From a virus: a stretch of DNA of 52,010 nt. This document shows, piece by piece, positions 2,922 through 16,790 of this stretch. Position numbers and translations under genes: made by a program. Location: the IMG/VR virus record IMGVR_UViG_3300021088_000016, positions 1 through 52,010 of that record; one strand, given 5' to 3'. The notes under the pieces were generated by a model that was not told where the DNA came from, searched no databases, and saw nothing but the letters and a program-made list of their open reading frames with translations. Numbering within the stretch: position 1 is the first letter of the stretch; each line of letters opens with the position of its first letter.

Positions 2922-3150
2922 ACACAAGCCCAAACGCGGGGATAAGTTCTACGATCAAAGTAGGATGCCCGAGCAACCTAATGGATTTATCCTGATGGTT
3001 GATTGGAAGGAAAGAGAAGTCACTGTGCAGTTCCACAATGACGATAAGACGTGGAAACAATACTCCTTTGATGACATTGAAGATTACTATGACAGCTCGT
3101 TCATGGGAGGGGGCTACTACCTATACAATAGAATATCGAAGCTCTCCTAA
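2914..3150 (+). CDS. Small early protein, 78 aa
   Basis: GGAGG (2904-2908) stands five bases before a GTG at 2914, which opens a 78-codon frame (MSEHKPKRGDKFY...). It overlaps the previous gene by eight bases. The segment GFILMVDWKEREVTVQFHND-TWKQYSFDDIEDYY resembles a small beta-barrel with acidic patches, but no family is recognised. Longer versions of the frame start inside the upstream gene without a ribosome site. Confidence 0.65.
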   Translation: MSEHKPKRGDKFYDQSRMPEQPNGFILMVDWKEREVTVQFHNDDKTWKQYSFDDIEDYYDSSFMGGGYYLYNRISKLS

Positions 3151-3171
3151 GTAATAGTTGCGTATTCTCAG

Positions 3172-3200
3172 TTGGTGTAAAGAAATGTGCGTGGTACAAT
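3172..3200 (+). promoter_or_regulatory. Probable sigma70-type promoter
   Basis: TTGGTG (3172-3177), 17 bp, then TACAAT (3195-3200), 36 bp upstream of the 176-aa gene. Four of six bases match consensus at -35 and five of six at -10. Confidence 0.5.
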
Positions 3201-3236
3201 AATGAATAGGGAAATGCAACTCAACGGGGATGAGAA

Positions 3237-3767
3237 ATGGGAAAGCGAATACGAAATAAGGGTGCGCGTAACGGTCATATGAAACGCTTTTCTTCGACGA
3301 TGGTTAATGCGGGGAAATCAGCTAATCGTCTGGTAATTGGAGAGTATGCAGCCCGGGCGAATACATTAGCTATTCCCCCCAAAGAAGCGAACTACTCCAA
3401 CAACGAAGAATATTATCGTGAGCGGAGGATACTAGAGCTTAAACCCATTGACGTGGTCCTCGGTAAACTCAAAGAGCTCTGGACCACTGATTTCTGGCAA
3501 GGGTACGATATCTTCAATCGTATATGCCATATTAATACGCCTAAACGTAAATTGTTTTTATTCTTTTCTGGACCTAGATGGTTCTGGGTTCAGGAAATCC
3601 AAGTAAGGGATGCGTGGGAGATTAAAAGGTCGATCATCTATCCCGATAGAGAGATCGCAATGAAGCGGTACTTCCACGCATCCATTTGCTGGATCGAGAA
3701 GAGACACATAGGCTCTCAGCTTTGTGAGCGAGAGCCTCCCCCCAAACTAGACTTAACAGTTATCTGA
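3237..3767 (+). CDS. Unknown 176-aa protein
   Basis: A single open frame with a basic N-terminus (GKRIRNKGARNGHMKRF) and an aromatic middle (RKLFLFFSGPRWFWVQE). There is no membrane helix or known motif. It is alone between the promoter at 3172 and a structured non-coding leader, so it is probably a monocistronic early gene. The basic start suggests possible nucleic-acid binding, which is inference only. Confidence 0.65.
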   Translation: MGKRIRNKGARNGHMKRFSSTMVNAGKSANRLVIGEYAARANTLAIPPKEANYSNNEEYYRERRILELKPIDVVLGKLKELWTTDFWQGYDIFNRICHINTPKRKLFLFFSGPRWFWVQEIQVRDAWEIKRSIIYPDREIAMKRYFHASICWIEKRHIGSQLCEREPPPKLDLTVI

Positions 3768-3992: not shown

Positions 3993-4229
3993 ATGATTAT
4001 TGAATGTGCCTGTGGTCGTTTGGAGACTCGGCACGATACCTCAAGTCATCGTATTAAGGGATTGTGCCATCGCTGTAGAGCAGAGAAGTTGGCGCGAATT
4101 AAGTACCTTTCACGTATGTATCCGGCGGTATTTGCGCCGATCCTGCGGTATGCAGGTAAAGGCAAGCTAGCTACACGTGTGCCTGGCGGAATAGGTAGAC
4201 GCAAGGGACTTAAAATCCCTCGGCAGTAA
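3993..4229 (+). CDS. Small zinc-finger protein running into a tRNA gene
   Basis: AAAGGAGAG at 3981-3989 sets the ATG at 3993; the longer frame would begin inside the terminator stem. The 78-aa product has CAC near its N-terminus and GLCHRCRAEK about 20 residues later, a likely single zinc site, then a basic tail. Its last 17 codons and stop lie within the 5' half of the tRNA-Leu gene. Processing of the tRNA would therefore destroy this reading frame. Confidence 0.6.
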   Translation: MIIECACGRLETRHDTSSHRIKGLCHRCRAEKLARIKYLSRMYPAVFAPILRYAGKGKLATRVPGGIGRRKGLKIPRQ

Positions 4230-4263
4230 TACCGTGCGGGTTCGAGTCCCGCGGCACACACCA
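4177..4263 (+). tRNA. tRNA-Leu (anticodon UAA)
   Basis: The cloverleaf is complete. GTGTGCC (4177-4183) pairs with GGCACAC (4253-4259); A and an encoded CCA end at 4263. The anticodon stem AGGGA/TCCCT holds the loop CTTAAAA, giving TAA. A long variable arm (CGGC...ACCG) marks the leucine/serine class, and the T arm is GCGGG-TTCGAGT-CCCGC. It is the only intact tRNA in the window and probably supplements UUA decoding in a host that rarely uses that codon. Confidence 0.95.
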
Positions 4264-15096: not shown

Positions 15097-15441
15097 ATGA
15101 TGAAAAAGCAGAAGTCCCATACAGGAGAGTTTATTATGGGCAGGAAGAATAGGTTCTCAAACACACTGGTAGCAGGTGCTGACGAGACTTTCTTCGTCAT
15201 CACCATGGACAATGGTAAGTCCAGTCCTGCCTTGAATGCCAAACAGGAGATCGTTGATTGGCTCGACGAACATTTCGTTAATACTGAGACCAATGTGTCT
15301 CAGATCACAGTCAAGAGAAAGAAGAGGAAGTCCGCTCTCCTGCGTGAGGCCGAGAGAAACTCGGAGATCGCAATCTTGGAGAAGCGTTTGGAGTTCCTCA
15401 AGGAACAGCCTTCTGTCGTCGATGGCAAGGGGGCTCTCTAA
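15097..15441 (+). CDS. Small basic/coiled protein, 114 aa
   Basis: The first ATG (15097) has GAGGG at nine bases; an internal ATG at 15136 has a better AGGAG site, giving 101 aa from MGRKNRF, and may be the true start. The protein has a strand-rich N-terminal half (DETFFVITMDNGK), a basic stretch (KRKKRKSALLREAERN) and a C-terminal helix (SEIAILEKRLEFLKEQ) suitable for dimerisation. Last gene before the large non-coding region. Unknown function. Confidence 0.65.
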   Translation: MMKKQKSHTGEFIMGRKNRFSNTLVAGADETFFVITMDNGKSSPALNAKQEIVDWLDEHFVNTETNVSQITVKRKKRKSALLREAERNSEIAILEKRLEFLKEQPSVVDGKGAL

Positions 15442-16400
15442 TCCGGCCGAGTACCTGCCTGGCTGTCTACCAGGCGTGAGGGAAAGCTGACTGCACTGGC
15501 CTGCTTGTGCGGAGAAAGTAAGGTGCACAACCAAAGCGGGATAGAAGGGACTATCGGAAATCTTGGCGACGCAACCGGCTTCTACAATGGAAAGTCCCAG
15601 CTGAGGGTGGCCGTCTCCTTAAGTGGTACTTACGGCGTATCAGCTATTGCTGGTCCAAACAGCGATCCAGGTAGAGCAGAGATGGAAGATTTGTCCGCCT
15701 CATTGACGATGCGCAATTCGATGAGGAAATAGCAAACAGCCCGTATGACGTCCGGTTCGACTCCGGTAACCCTTAAGTGGGTGGGTGTATCTCATACGAC
15801 GAGCCTTACAGACGGTATAGATTAAGGGCCTGGTGCCACGATACTGTCCATGTCTGGGGCTAATACCTCGATGACGAGGACAACGTATAACCTAAGTAGT
15901 GTCCCACTAAACAACCGGCGTACGGGTCCCCTGAGTGACCCTTGTGGGCACGTAAGTTCCGAAAGTACGGGTGCACAGTGGGTTCGACTCCCTACTCCGT
16001 GAGACGGAGACCGGCGGTGCATAGAAGGTAGTCAAGTGCGAGGCGCTATCCTTTGGGTAGCGGGCTTGGCATTACTAGTAGGAACGTGGGTTGACTGGCC
16101 AGTGTGAAAAGCTGGCATTGTGCGTCCATTCGCACTACGCCTAGATCTATCGTCTAGAGAAAGAAGAGGTGTTAAGTTGACTCTGTCAGCCACTGACATC
16201 CCGAGTGATAAAGAAGCCTACACAGGCGGCCTATAAGTCCGATGCTAATCCTTGAAGGGACAAGGAGCATACGTGGTCGGCACGGATCCTCGAAGATACA
16301 ATACGTTAACTCTGGTCCGTCTCGTTGAAGATGTTCAAGAGAATGGATTATCAGGGACGAAGCGCGTAACCCACACAAGAGGTGAACAACCATGTGCAGG
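15442..16400 (+). ncRNA. Candidate giant ornate non-coding RNA (GOLLD/ROOL-like)
   Basis: About 1 kb lacks a credible gene in an otherwise tightly packed genome. Perfect stems include GCCTGG/CCAGGC (15457/15470), TTGTGC/GCACAA (15505/15525), GGGACT/AGTCCC (15547/15593), CCTCAT/ATGAGG (15698/15721), GGGTC/GACCC near 15925, GCTATCC/GGGTAGC (16045/16055), GCCAG/CTGGC and GTGCG/CGCAC (16098-16135), CTAGA/TCTAG (16141), TGTCAG/CTGACA (16184) and TCCTTG/CAAGGA (16249). CGTATGA/TCATACG (15742/15792) closes a three-way junction. Two tRNA-type T-loops (GGTTCGACTCC, 15754 and 15979) are present without a complete tRNA. Ends are uncertain; structure may run to 16490. Known phage RNAs of this size and complexity are GOLLD and ROOL, but I cannot prove membership. 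Confidence 0.65.
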
Positions 16401-16493
16401 AAACAACGCATCATTCGCCCCATCAGACCTCCTTAATGGAACCCCGGGGATGGGACCCCTCGTCACGCTACCAGATAACAATGGAGAGAAACC

Positions 16494-16790
16494 ATGAATT
16501 GGTGGCAGACTCCGTATAATCCGCCACCCTACGGGTGGCCTCCGCAGCAGATACCTTGTCCTCCTGGCGTTGATCCAATTAAAGTGATGGAGTTTATGGA
16601 TCGAGTTCAGAGGAGGGCTCAGAAAGCAAAGGAAAAAGATAAGGACCCTAAGAAAGATGAGAAGAAGCCCAGTCCTTGGAAAGATGCCTTGTGGTACTTC
16701 CAGGCTGCATGTATATTGTACTTCTTGTCTCCCCCTCTTGCTGCTTTGCAGCATATAATTTCCACCATCGTAACACAGGTCATGAAGTAA
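16494..16790 (+). CDS. Pro-rich protein with C-terminal membrane segment, 98 aa
   Basis: ATGGAGAG precedes the ATG. The N-terminus is proline- and tryptophan-rich (MNWWQTPYNPPPYGWPPQQ). The middle is a Lys/Glu helix (RRAQKAKEKDKDPKKDEKK), and the C-terminus has a hydrophobic stretch (DALWYFQAACILYFLSPPLAAL). Probably a small membrane-associated protein. First gene after the large RNA region; its TAA is followed directly by the TTG start of the nuclease. Confidence 0.65.
   Translation: MNWWQTPYNPPPYGWPPQQIPCPPGVDPIKVMEFMDRVQRRAQKAKEKDKDPKKDEKKPSPWKDALWYFQAACILYFLSPPLAALQHIISTIVTQVMK

Follow-up and report, generated by a model that had tools for sequence, protein, structure and literature searches.

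A giant structured RNA encoded in the replication module of uncultured phages, with a probable circularly permuted tRNA elbow in its relatives

What is encoded by a kilobase of phage DNA that lies among replication genes and yet appears to hold no gene of its own? The window (the whole stretch of DNA analysed, a 52-kb IMG/VR phage record) has such an element between a 114-aa gene, whose stop lies at 15441, and a 98-aa gene that starts at 16494, and the limits 15442-16490 given for it in the preliminary description are thus correct. The gene order is primase/helicase, polymerase, SSB-like gene, 114-aa gene, the element, a small protein, a Cas4-type exonuclease (phrog_1990) and endonuclease I, which places the element inside the replication module of the phage. 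The label "SSB-like" is our interpretation from where that gene lies and how long it is; it matched no family. The window DNA polymerase was nearest to those of Zobellviridae/Cobavirinae and allied Roseobacter phages (34-39% to CRP-5, CRP-4 and CRP-13). No cultured phage gave a DNA match to the locus, those nearest by protein had no long interval, and a genome_contigs search returned no bacterial genome with the locus. Promoter-like sites were not in excess around the element, and the sole terminator-like site downstream of it falls within the next gene. In what follows L-numbers label the contigs or loci compared and W the window. One of them, L002, has an in-frame insert of ~135 codons in its DNA polymerase gene (~3150-3590) that is absent from the window polymerase and matches no Rfam family; it is possibly an intron or an intein.

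A comparison of W with L002 showed how the element differs from the genes beside it. Mismatches were spread evenly over the codon positions of the element (92/98/87), whereas the flanking genes had a third-position excess (23/14/51 and 14/7/35), and 20 of the 25 indels in the element were not multiples of three and so frame-breaking. A coding region is ruled out by the absent codon periodicity together with these indels, which bears out the earlier impression of ~1,050 bp with no credible gene. A conserved coding frame, the finding that the preliminary description had set against an RNA, was looked for, and the element showed none of the codon periodicity of its flanking genes.

Folded as a single sequence the element was unremarkable (z -0.45, with 5 of 20 shuffles folding equally well), and thermodynamic stability of the single sequence was therefore dropped as evidence. 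For the same reason the at least fourteen perfect stems counted beforehand prove nothing by themselves; the structured RNA that they were taken to indicate is supported by comparison, which was needed because the single-sequence fold was no better than shuffles and an Rfam match was absent. The window RNA has two independent homologues: L002/L003, a pair of contigs whose RNA sequences are identical (L002:5942-6997, 74% identity), and L010/L090, which is a single contig (L010:4494-5475, 71%). The alignment of the three sequences had an energy z of -9.7 against column shuffles that preserve the conservation pattern, and its consensus fold spans the full length with 253 pairs. Double-sided changes were seen in 56 consensus pairs, against 21.3 +/- 3.6 in shuffled alignments and 2-8 when the partners were slid; this close alignment holds three sequences only and the structure was derived from the same sequences, which favours the real fold over the slid control, although the margin over the shuffles is nonetheless large. 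Covariation among homologues, for which the preliminary description had asked, is seen in the three sequences of this alignment. The CGTATGA/TCATACG helix that it had pointed out lies at 15742-15748/15792-15798, within the consensus fold; both homologues retain it, and one of its pairs has changed in a compensatory way from A-U to G-C. Judged by this comparison, it is near certain that window 15442-16490 is a functional, selectively maintained structured RNA. Its features, and the gene that follows it, are listed here.

15442-16490, plus strand: large structured non-coding RNA of ~1.05 kb with putative ends (non-coding tests, 253-pair consensus, two homologues)
15457-15475, plus strand: 5' hairpin GCCTGGCTGTCTACCAGGC, with a 7-nt loop CTGTYTA that recurs in other clade members
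15609-15636, plus strand: hairpin region with a GTCTC-TTAAG motif, which looks like the recurrent GTCTCATTAGC hairpin loop
15697-15726, plus strand: 10-bp hairpin GCCTCATTGA..TCGATGAGG (helix 15, four pairs with double-sided changes)
15742-15798, plus strand: junction closed by CGTATGA/TCATACG, containing T-arm hairpin 1 (consensus fold)
15751-15767, plus strand: tRNA T-arm-like hairpin 1, TCCGG-TTCGACT-CCGGT (identical in the three homologues)
15867-16159, plus strand: central domain with closing long-range helices, ~15867-15894 with 16087-16093 and 16136-16159 (helices 20-22, with six double-sided pairs in helix 21)
15971-16022, plus strand: junction GTGCAC/GTGCAT, which encloses an acceptor-like hairpin after T-arm 2 and is followed by ACCGGCGG (helices 26 and 27)
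15978-15995, plus strand: tRNA T-arm-like hairpin 2, GTGGG-TTCGACT-CCCTAC, with one bulged base (stem sequence changed in L002 and L010, pairing kept)
15995-16009, plus strand: acceptor-stem-like hairpin CTCCGTGAGACGGAG (helix 27)
16098-16116, plus strand: hairpin GCCAGTGTGAAAAGCTGGC (helix 30; L010 has a different stem sequence here, including four double-sided changes)
16317-16346, plus strand: long hairpin CCGTCTCGTTGAAGATGTTCAAGAGAATGG (helix 41)
16416-16456, plus strand: 3' region with the conserved motif CCTCCTTAA, found near the RNA 3' end in many clade members
16494-16790, plus strand: 98-aa protein with a K/E/D-rich segment and one C-terminal hydrophobic helix, a candidate RNA partner

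The preliminary description had offered the RNA as a relative of GOLLD or ROOL or else as a new class, and had proposed a search of Rfam. At gathering score no Rfam family matched the window element, nor any of 18 related loci. GOLLD is a giant phage or prophage RNA, in many cases >800 nt, with a complex fold and often near tRNAs, and ROOL is a large phage-encoded RNA with many hairpins whose function is unknown (PMC12286853). Neither model reached E <= 10 in the window region. Across 15 records the best GOLLD match (RF02032, cut-off 150 bits) had 9.4 bits and lay in another genome, far from its RNA locus, and ROOL (RF03087, cut-off 99.1 bits) gave no match at E <= 10; these negatives were obtained without a positive control for either model, and ROOL also gave none in control genomes, so its sensitivity is unproven. 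The models thus do not score, and of the two possibilities the new class stands, kinship to GOLLD or ROOL being unsupported. The OLE family was likewise unmatched in the window and related loci. Neither ARAGORN nor Rfam recognised the element as tRNA or tmRNA, and it has no anticodon loop and no CCA end; the Rfam group I and II intron models, including RF01998 (group-II-D1D4-1), were unmatched and both neighbouring genes are intact. Mimicry of ribosomal RNA, suggested by GTAAGTTCCGA and CCTCCTTAA, was rejected as shared k-mers were near background, and an anti-Shine-Dalgarno decoy was not favoured, as CCTCCTTAA lies in the predicted 3' hairpin region.

A position next to tRNAs, also expected beforehand, holds only loosely: a tRNA-Leu lies 11 kb upstream in the window and a tRNA is found at the locus in two outgroup phages, while no tRNA island adjoins the RNA, as that single tRNA is the only one in the window and none was found in 60 clade loci scanned. 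The window gene (4177-4263) is an ordinary tRNA-Leu(TAA), and the permuted elbow of the family described below is likewise Leu-like (class II). In the outgroups one tRNA occupies the locus of the RNA in each phage (L026:8822-8897 and L027:8911-8982); the giant RNA could have grown out of a tRNA at the locus.

To place the RNA among phages, an alignment of 14 exonucleases was used to pull 80 IMG/VR loci. Within one clade the SSB-like gene and the exonuclease were 1.4-4.1 kb apart, with ORF-free runs of roughly 0.5-2.4 kb inside these intervals, whereas in outgroups the spacing was mostly 2-460 bases; L031 (846) and L036 (1,515) have intervals occupied by ORFs. In the exonuclease phylogeny one change accounts for the long interval, on a branch of 63 uncultured phages with support 100/100. 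Sequence similarity between the RNAs was found only within clusters, and across the clade they are beyond alignment. Windowed consensus folding of eight clusters gave many RNA windows with z of -3 to -8, with the following genes nearer 0. In L120:2301-4358 and L119:1560-4945 about 2 kb of common, mostly ORF-free and covarying sequence was found at the RNA locus, possibly an RNA larger than 16S rRNA. Taken together, comparison of the loci shows an RNA family that is new, fast-evolving and, among the genomes searched, confined to one Zobellviridae/Cobavirinae-like clade.

Short motifs recurred across the clusters, namely GGTTCGAGTCC, GGTGACAGACG, GTCTCATTAGC, GGAGGCTAAAA, GGCTGTYTACC and CCTCCTTAA. 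The first of these is the tRNA T-arm motif; the preliminary description had not noticed the tRNA-like parts of the RNA. When at least four stem pairs were required, 100 T-arm hairpins were counted in 74 intervals against 0.4 expected, and 59 of the 74 carried one, with 0 on the reverse strand of the intervals and 2 in 571 kb of flanking DNA; these counts come from kin phages and are not independent events, yet the stems differ between phages and remain paired. The loops fit the tRNA consensus TTCRANY. This was further supported by a motif-free loop census in which TTCGAGT ranked first among 7-nt loops (26 vs 0). A search for GGTGACAGACG beyond the clade gave 16 contigs, of which two match by chance within genes that belong to other phages, and L308 could not be assigned by its gene content. 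The hairpin loop AGTATCCTAGAA, conserved in L117, L132, L134, L150 and L157, lies within the variable arm of some RNAs but within the acceptor-like hairpin of others, which may point to a docking loop that is portable.

In ~16 relatives of the window RNA the T-arm is joined by a D-arm. We found 17 D-arms (TGGYG-NAA..GG..A-CRC, 3-bp stem), two of which (L122, L124) are near-copies, and every one lies 16-52 nt downstream of a T-arm, the two being separated by a 3-5 nt linker or by a hairpin that stands where a tRNA has its acceptor stem. In tRNA the order is the opposite, with the D half before the T half. The T-stem, the acceptor-like stem and the D-stem covary in 12 sequences (covariation 0.449 vs 0.138 shuffled; 94% of cells paired vs <=58% when slid), as exemplified by a D-stem change of GCG/CGC to GTG/CAC. 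The bases directly 3' of the D-arm pair upstream of the variable region, in the fashion of an anticodon stem. For this closing stem the summed Watson-Crick helix length was 93, against 58.7 +/- 4.1 in shuffled sequences and 52.9 +/- 5.0 with swapped upstreams, and neither control reached 93 in 2,000 draws. Case by case it stands out in no more than about half of the sequences, among them L117 (9 pairs), L109 and L115 (8) and L102 and L148 (7), and it is missing from L122, L150, L158 and L096. The established tertiary rules of tRNA, in tRNA numbering, are U8-A14, A15-U48, G18-U55, G19-C56 and U54-A58. Position 48 is T in 27 of the 31 T-arms with a D-arm, which fits an A15-U48 Levitt pair, and ~16 relatives combine a TTCRANY loop, G53-C61, A14, G18G19, a pyrimidine at 48 before the T-stem and, usually, the closing stem; an anticodon loop, a CCA end and a fixed acceptor length are not kept. 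At E <= 1 a covariance model of the module (R1) matched 93 times across 77 sources; once the loci were oriented, 92 of these matches were on the plus strand, and a few of the 93 are ordinary tRNAs. We conclude that a Leu-like, circularly permuted tRNA-elbow module, T then D, is very probably present in the RNA family.

The window's own RNA has two T-arms and the acceptor-like hairpin, with no D-arm and no complete elbow. Because R1 gave no match at E <= 1 in its element and was weak in L090 (13.7 bits) and L002 (12.2), we count the window RNA as a reduced or derived form, the complete elbow belonging to relatives. The trio of T-arm, hairpin and ACYGGCG(G) was also found in L113, L138, L143-L145, L155, L167 and L016, and in L144 and L145 it is continued by a D-arm-like TGGCGGCAATGGTGGCGC.

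When the permuted-elbow pattern was searched in all viral contigs, 116 of 124 matches overlapped ordinary tRNAs and mostly reflect tandem tRNA arrays. A T-arm followed by a D-arm, not called by ARAGORN, was seen in L182:770-820, L183:6667-6717, L193:3266-3313, L240:3957-4008, L255:5957-6001 and L279:4092-4141, several with complementary acceptor-like bases between the arms; these are possible permuted tRNA-Leu-like genes. Apparently separate from the giant RNA, a canonical class I tRNA-like fold that is circularly permuted lies between ORFs in L165:2220-2330, with a 7-bp acceptor, a 4-bp D-stem, a 5-bp anticodon stem, a 5-nt variable loop, a 5-bp T-stem and an anticodon loop without U33.

The gene 3' of the RNA is another recurrent feature of the locus. 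The last ORF before the exonuclease typically encodes a protein of 85-140 aa that combines a stretch rich in K/E/D with a single hydrophobic helix at its C terminus; the mean hydropathy over 19 residues exceeded 1.6 in 53 of 74 intervals and was just below in several others, the window protein having 1.54 and matching neither Pfam nor PHROG. Outgroups without the RNA had no such membrane ORF at the locus, except for a 60-aa ORF in L032. In L099, L110, L111, L128 and L163 a metallophosphoesterase-like ORF (SDTHFFH...GNHDK) lies between the RNA and the exonuclease.

We read the elbow as architecture because the nucleotides of the tertiary fold are kept and those for aminoacylation and decoding are absent: it would be a T-loop/D-loop clamp that locks the RNA fold or clips copies together, and would not serve decoding. 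The RNA may form a ribonucleoprotein with the product of the gene immediately 3' of it, the small membrane protein (98 aa in the window). In such a complex the charged part of the protein would bind the RNA and the hydrophobic helix would anchor it in the inner membrane, close to the replication machinery that the neighbouring phage genes specify. It is quite possible, if still short of probable, that the family is a new giant-RNA class that combines a permuted elbow with a ribonucleoprotein carrying its own membrane anchor and is maintained across the clade while its sequence turns over. The function as a membrane-tethered ribonucleoprotein scaffold near replication is about as probable as this, or slightly less so. 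The membrane protein could merely be the next gene of an operon, and against it as a partner stands the metallophosphoesterase-like ORF that is nearest the exonuclease in several members.

We know of no counterpart in GOLLD or ROOL of the recurrent membrane-protein neighbour, and this counts against an RNA-only scaffold or nanocage, a homo-oligomer of the GOLLD/ROOL type that would need no protein and in which elbows would provide intra- or intermolecular contacts. Size, phage origin, complex fold and rapid sequence change do resemble GOLLD and ROOL, but model homology to either is lacking and the terms "T-loop" and "tRNA-like" are absent from the main text of the cryo-EM paper (PMC12286853), and we consider such a cage unlikely. 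A shade less likely again is an RNA that acts on translation, with an elbow that binds the ribosome or as a cis leader that boosts or controls the membrane-protein gene. Such a role has been proposed for the yjdF riboswitch, whose aptamer contains a tRNA-like elbow, associates with ribosomes and increases translation in cis (PMC9142559), and in most clade members a single gene follows immediately 3' of the RNA; however, at >1 kb the RNA is far above the usual leader length, hundreds of bases separate its elbow from the start codon, the anti-SD-like CCTCCTTAA is in a predicted hairpin region and not free, and rRNA-like sequence is not above background.

The RNA might also be a decoy that soaks up, or is modified by, host tRNA enzymes such as TruB and TrmA. 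T-arm hairpins are sufficient substrates for these enzymes, and the T-loops of 59 of the 74 members follow TTCRANY, but a decoy would have no need of a D-arm, a closing stem or a further one to two kilobases of conserved structure, which makes it improbable. A tRNA at the locus in outgroups L026 and L027 would suit an ordinary origin, as a self-splicing intron, a decayed tRNA array or decayed genes; with both neighbour genes intact, the group I/II models unmatched and compensatory changes that are not a product of decay, this is largely contradicted and scarcely credible.

The tethered ribonucleoprotein that we favour has in the recurrent membrane-protein neighbour a direct, testable handle on function. 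To our knowledge very few giant RNAs have been described from bacteria or phages, GOLLD and ROOL among them and still without a function; the window family is a further lineage, apart from both by every model test made. With dozens of divergent natural members at a single syntenic position, the family suits covariation analysis, probing and cryo-EM, and the permuted elbow would show how parts of tRNA can be reused as architecture. A search of the open-access literature found no account of the RNA or of a permuted phage tRNA elbow, and we know of no description of a tRNA elbow in permuted order inside a giant RNA.

Compared with known systems, the window family shares with GOLLD its nature as a giant phage RNA of complex fold, and differs in the absence of a covariance-model match, in the permuted elbows of its relatives and in the recurrent membrane-protein neighbour. 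Like ROOL it is phage-encoded, large and hairpin-rich; unlike ROOL, whose model gave no match, it is longer and has tRNA-like modules and no adjoining tRNA island, a setting common but not universal for ROOL. The membrane protein partner of OLE is OapA, and a candidate partner here is the one-helix charged protein encoded 3' of the window RNA. OLE is likewise a large ornate RNA and is membrane-localised (PMC11332333), but it is bacterial whereas the window family is from phages and has no Rfam match, and the small protein matches no family tested. In the yjdF aptamer a D-loop and a T-loop likewise form a tRNA-like elbow within a bacterial RNA that is not a tRNA and lacks a free 3' end; that aptamer is short, and its published comparison is to tRNA-Lys (PMC9142559), whereas the elbow of the relatives is permuted, Leu-like, with a long variable region, and part of an RNA of 1-2 kb. 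Natural circularly permuted RNAs are listed in PMC10085705. Permuted tRNA genes are like the elbow of the relatives in that the T half precedes the D half and the acceptor side is capped; the elbow differs from them in having no anticodon loop or CCA end, in an acceptor-like stem that varies in length or is absent, and in being embedded in a giant RNA.
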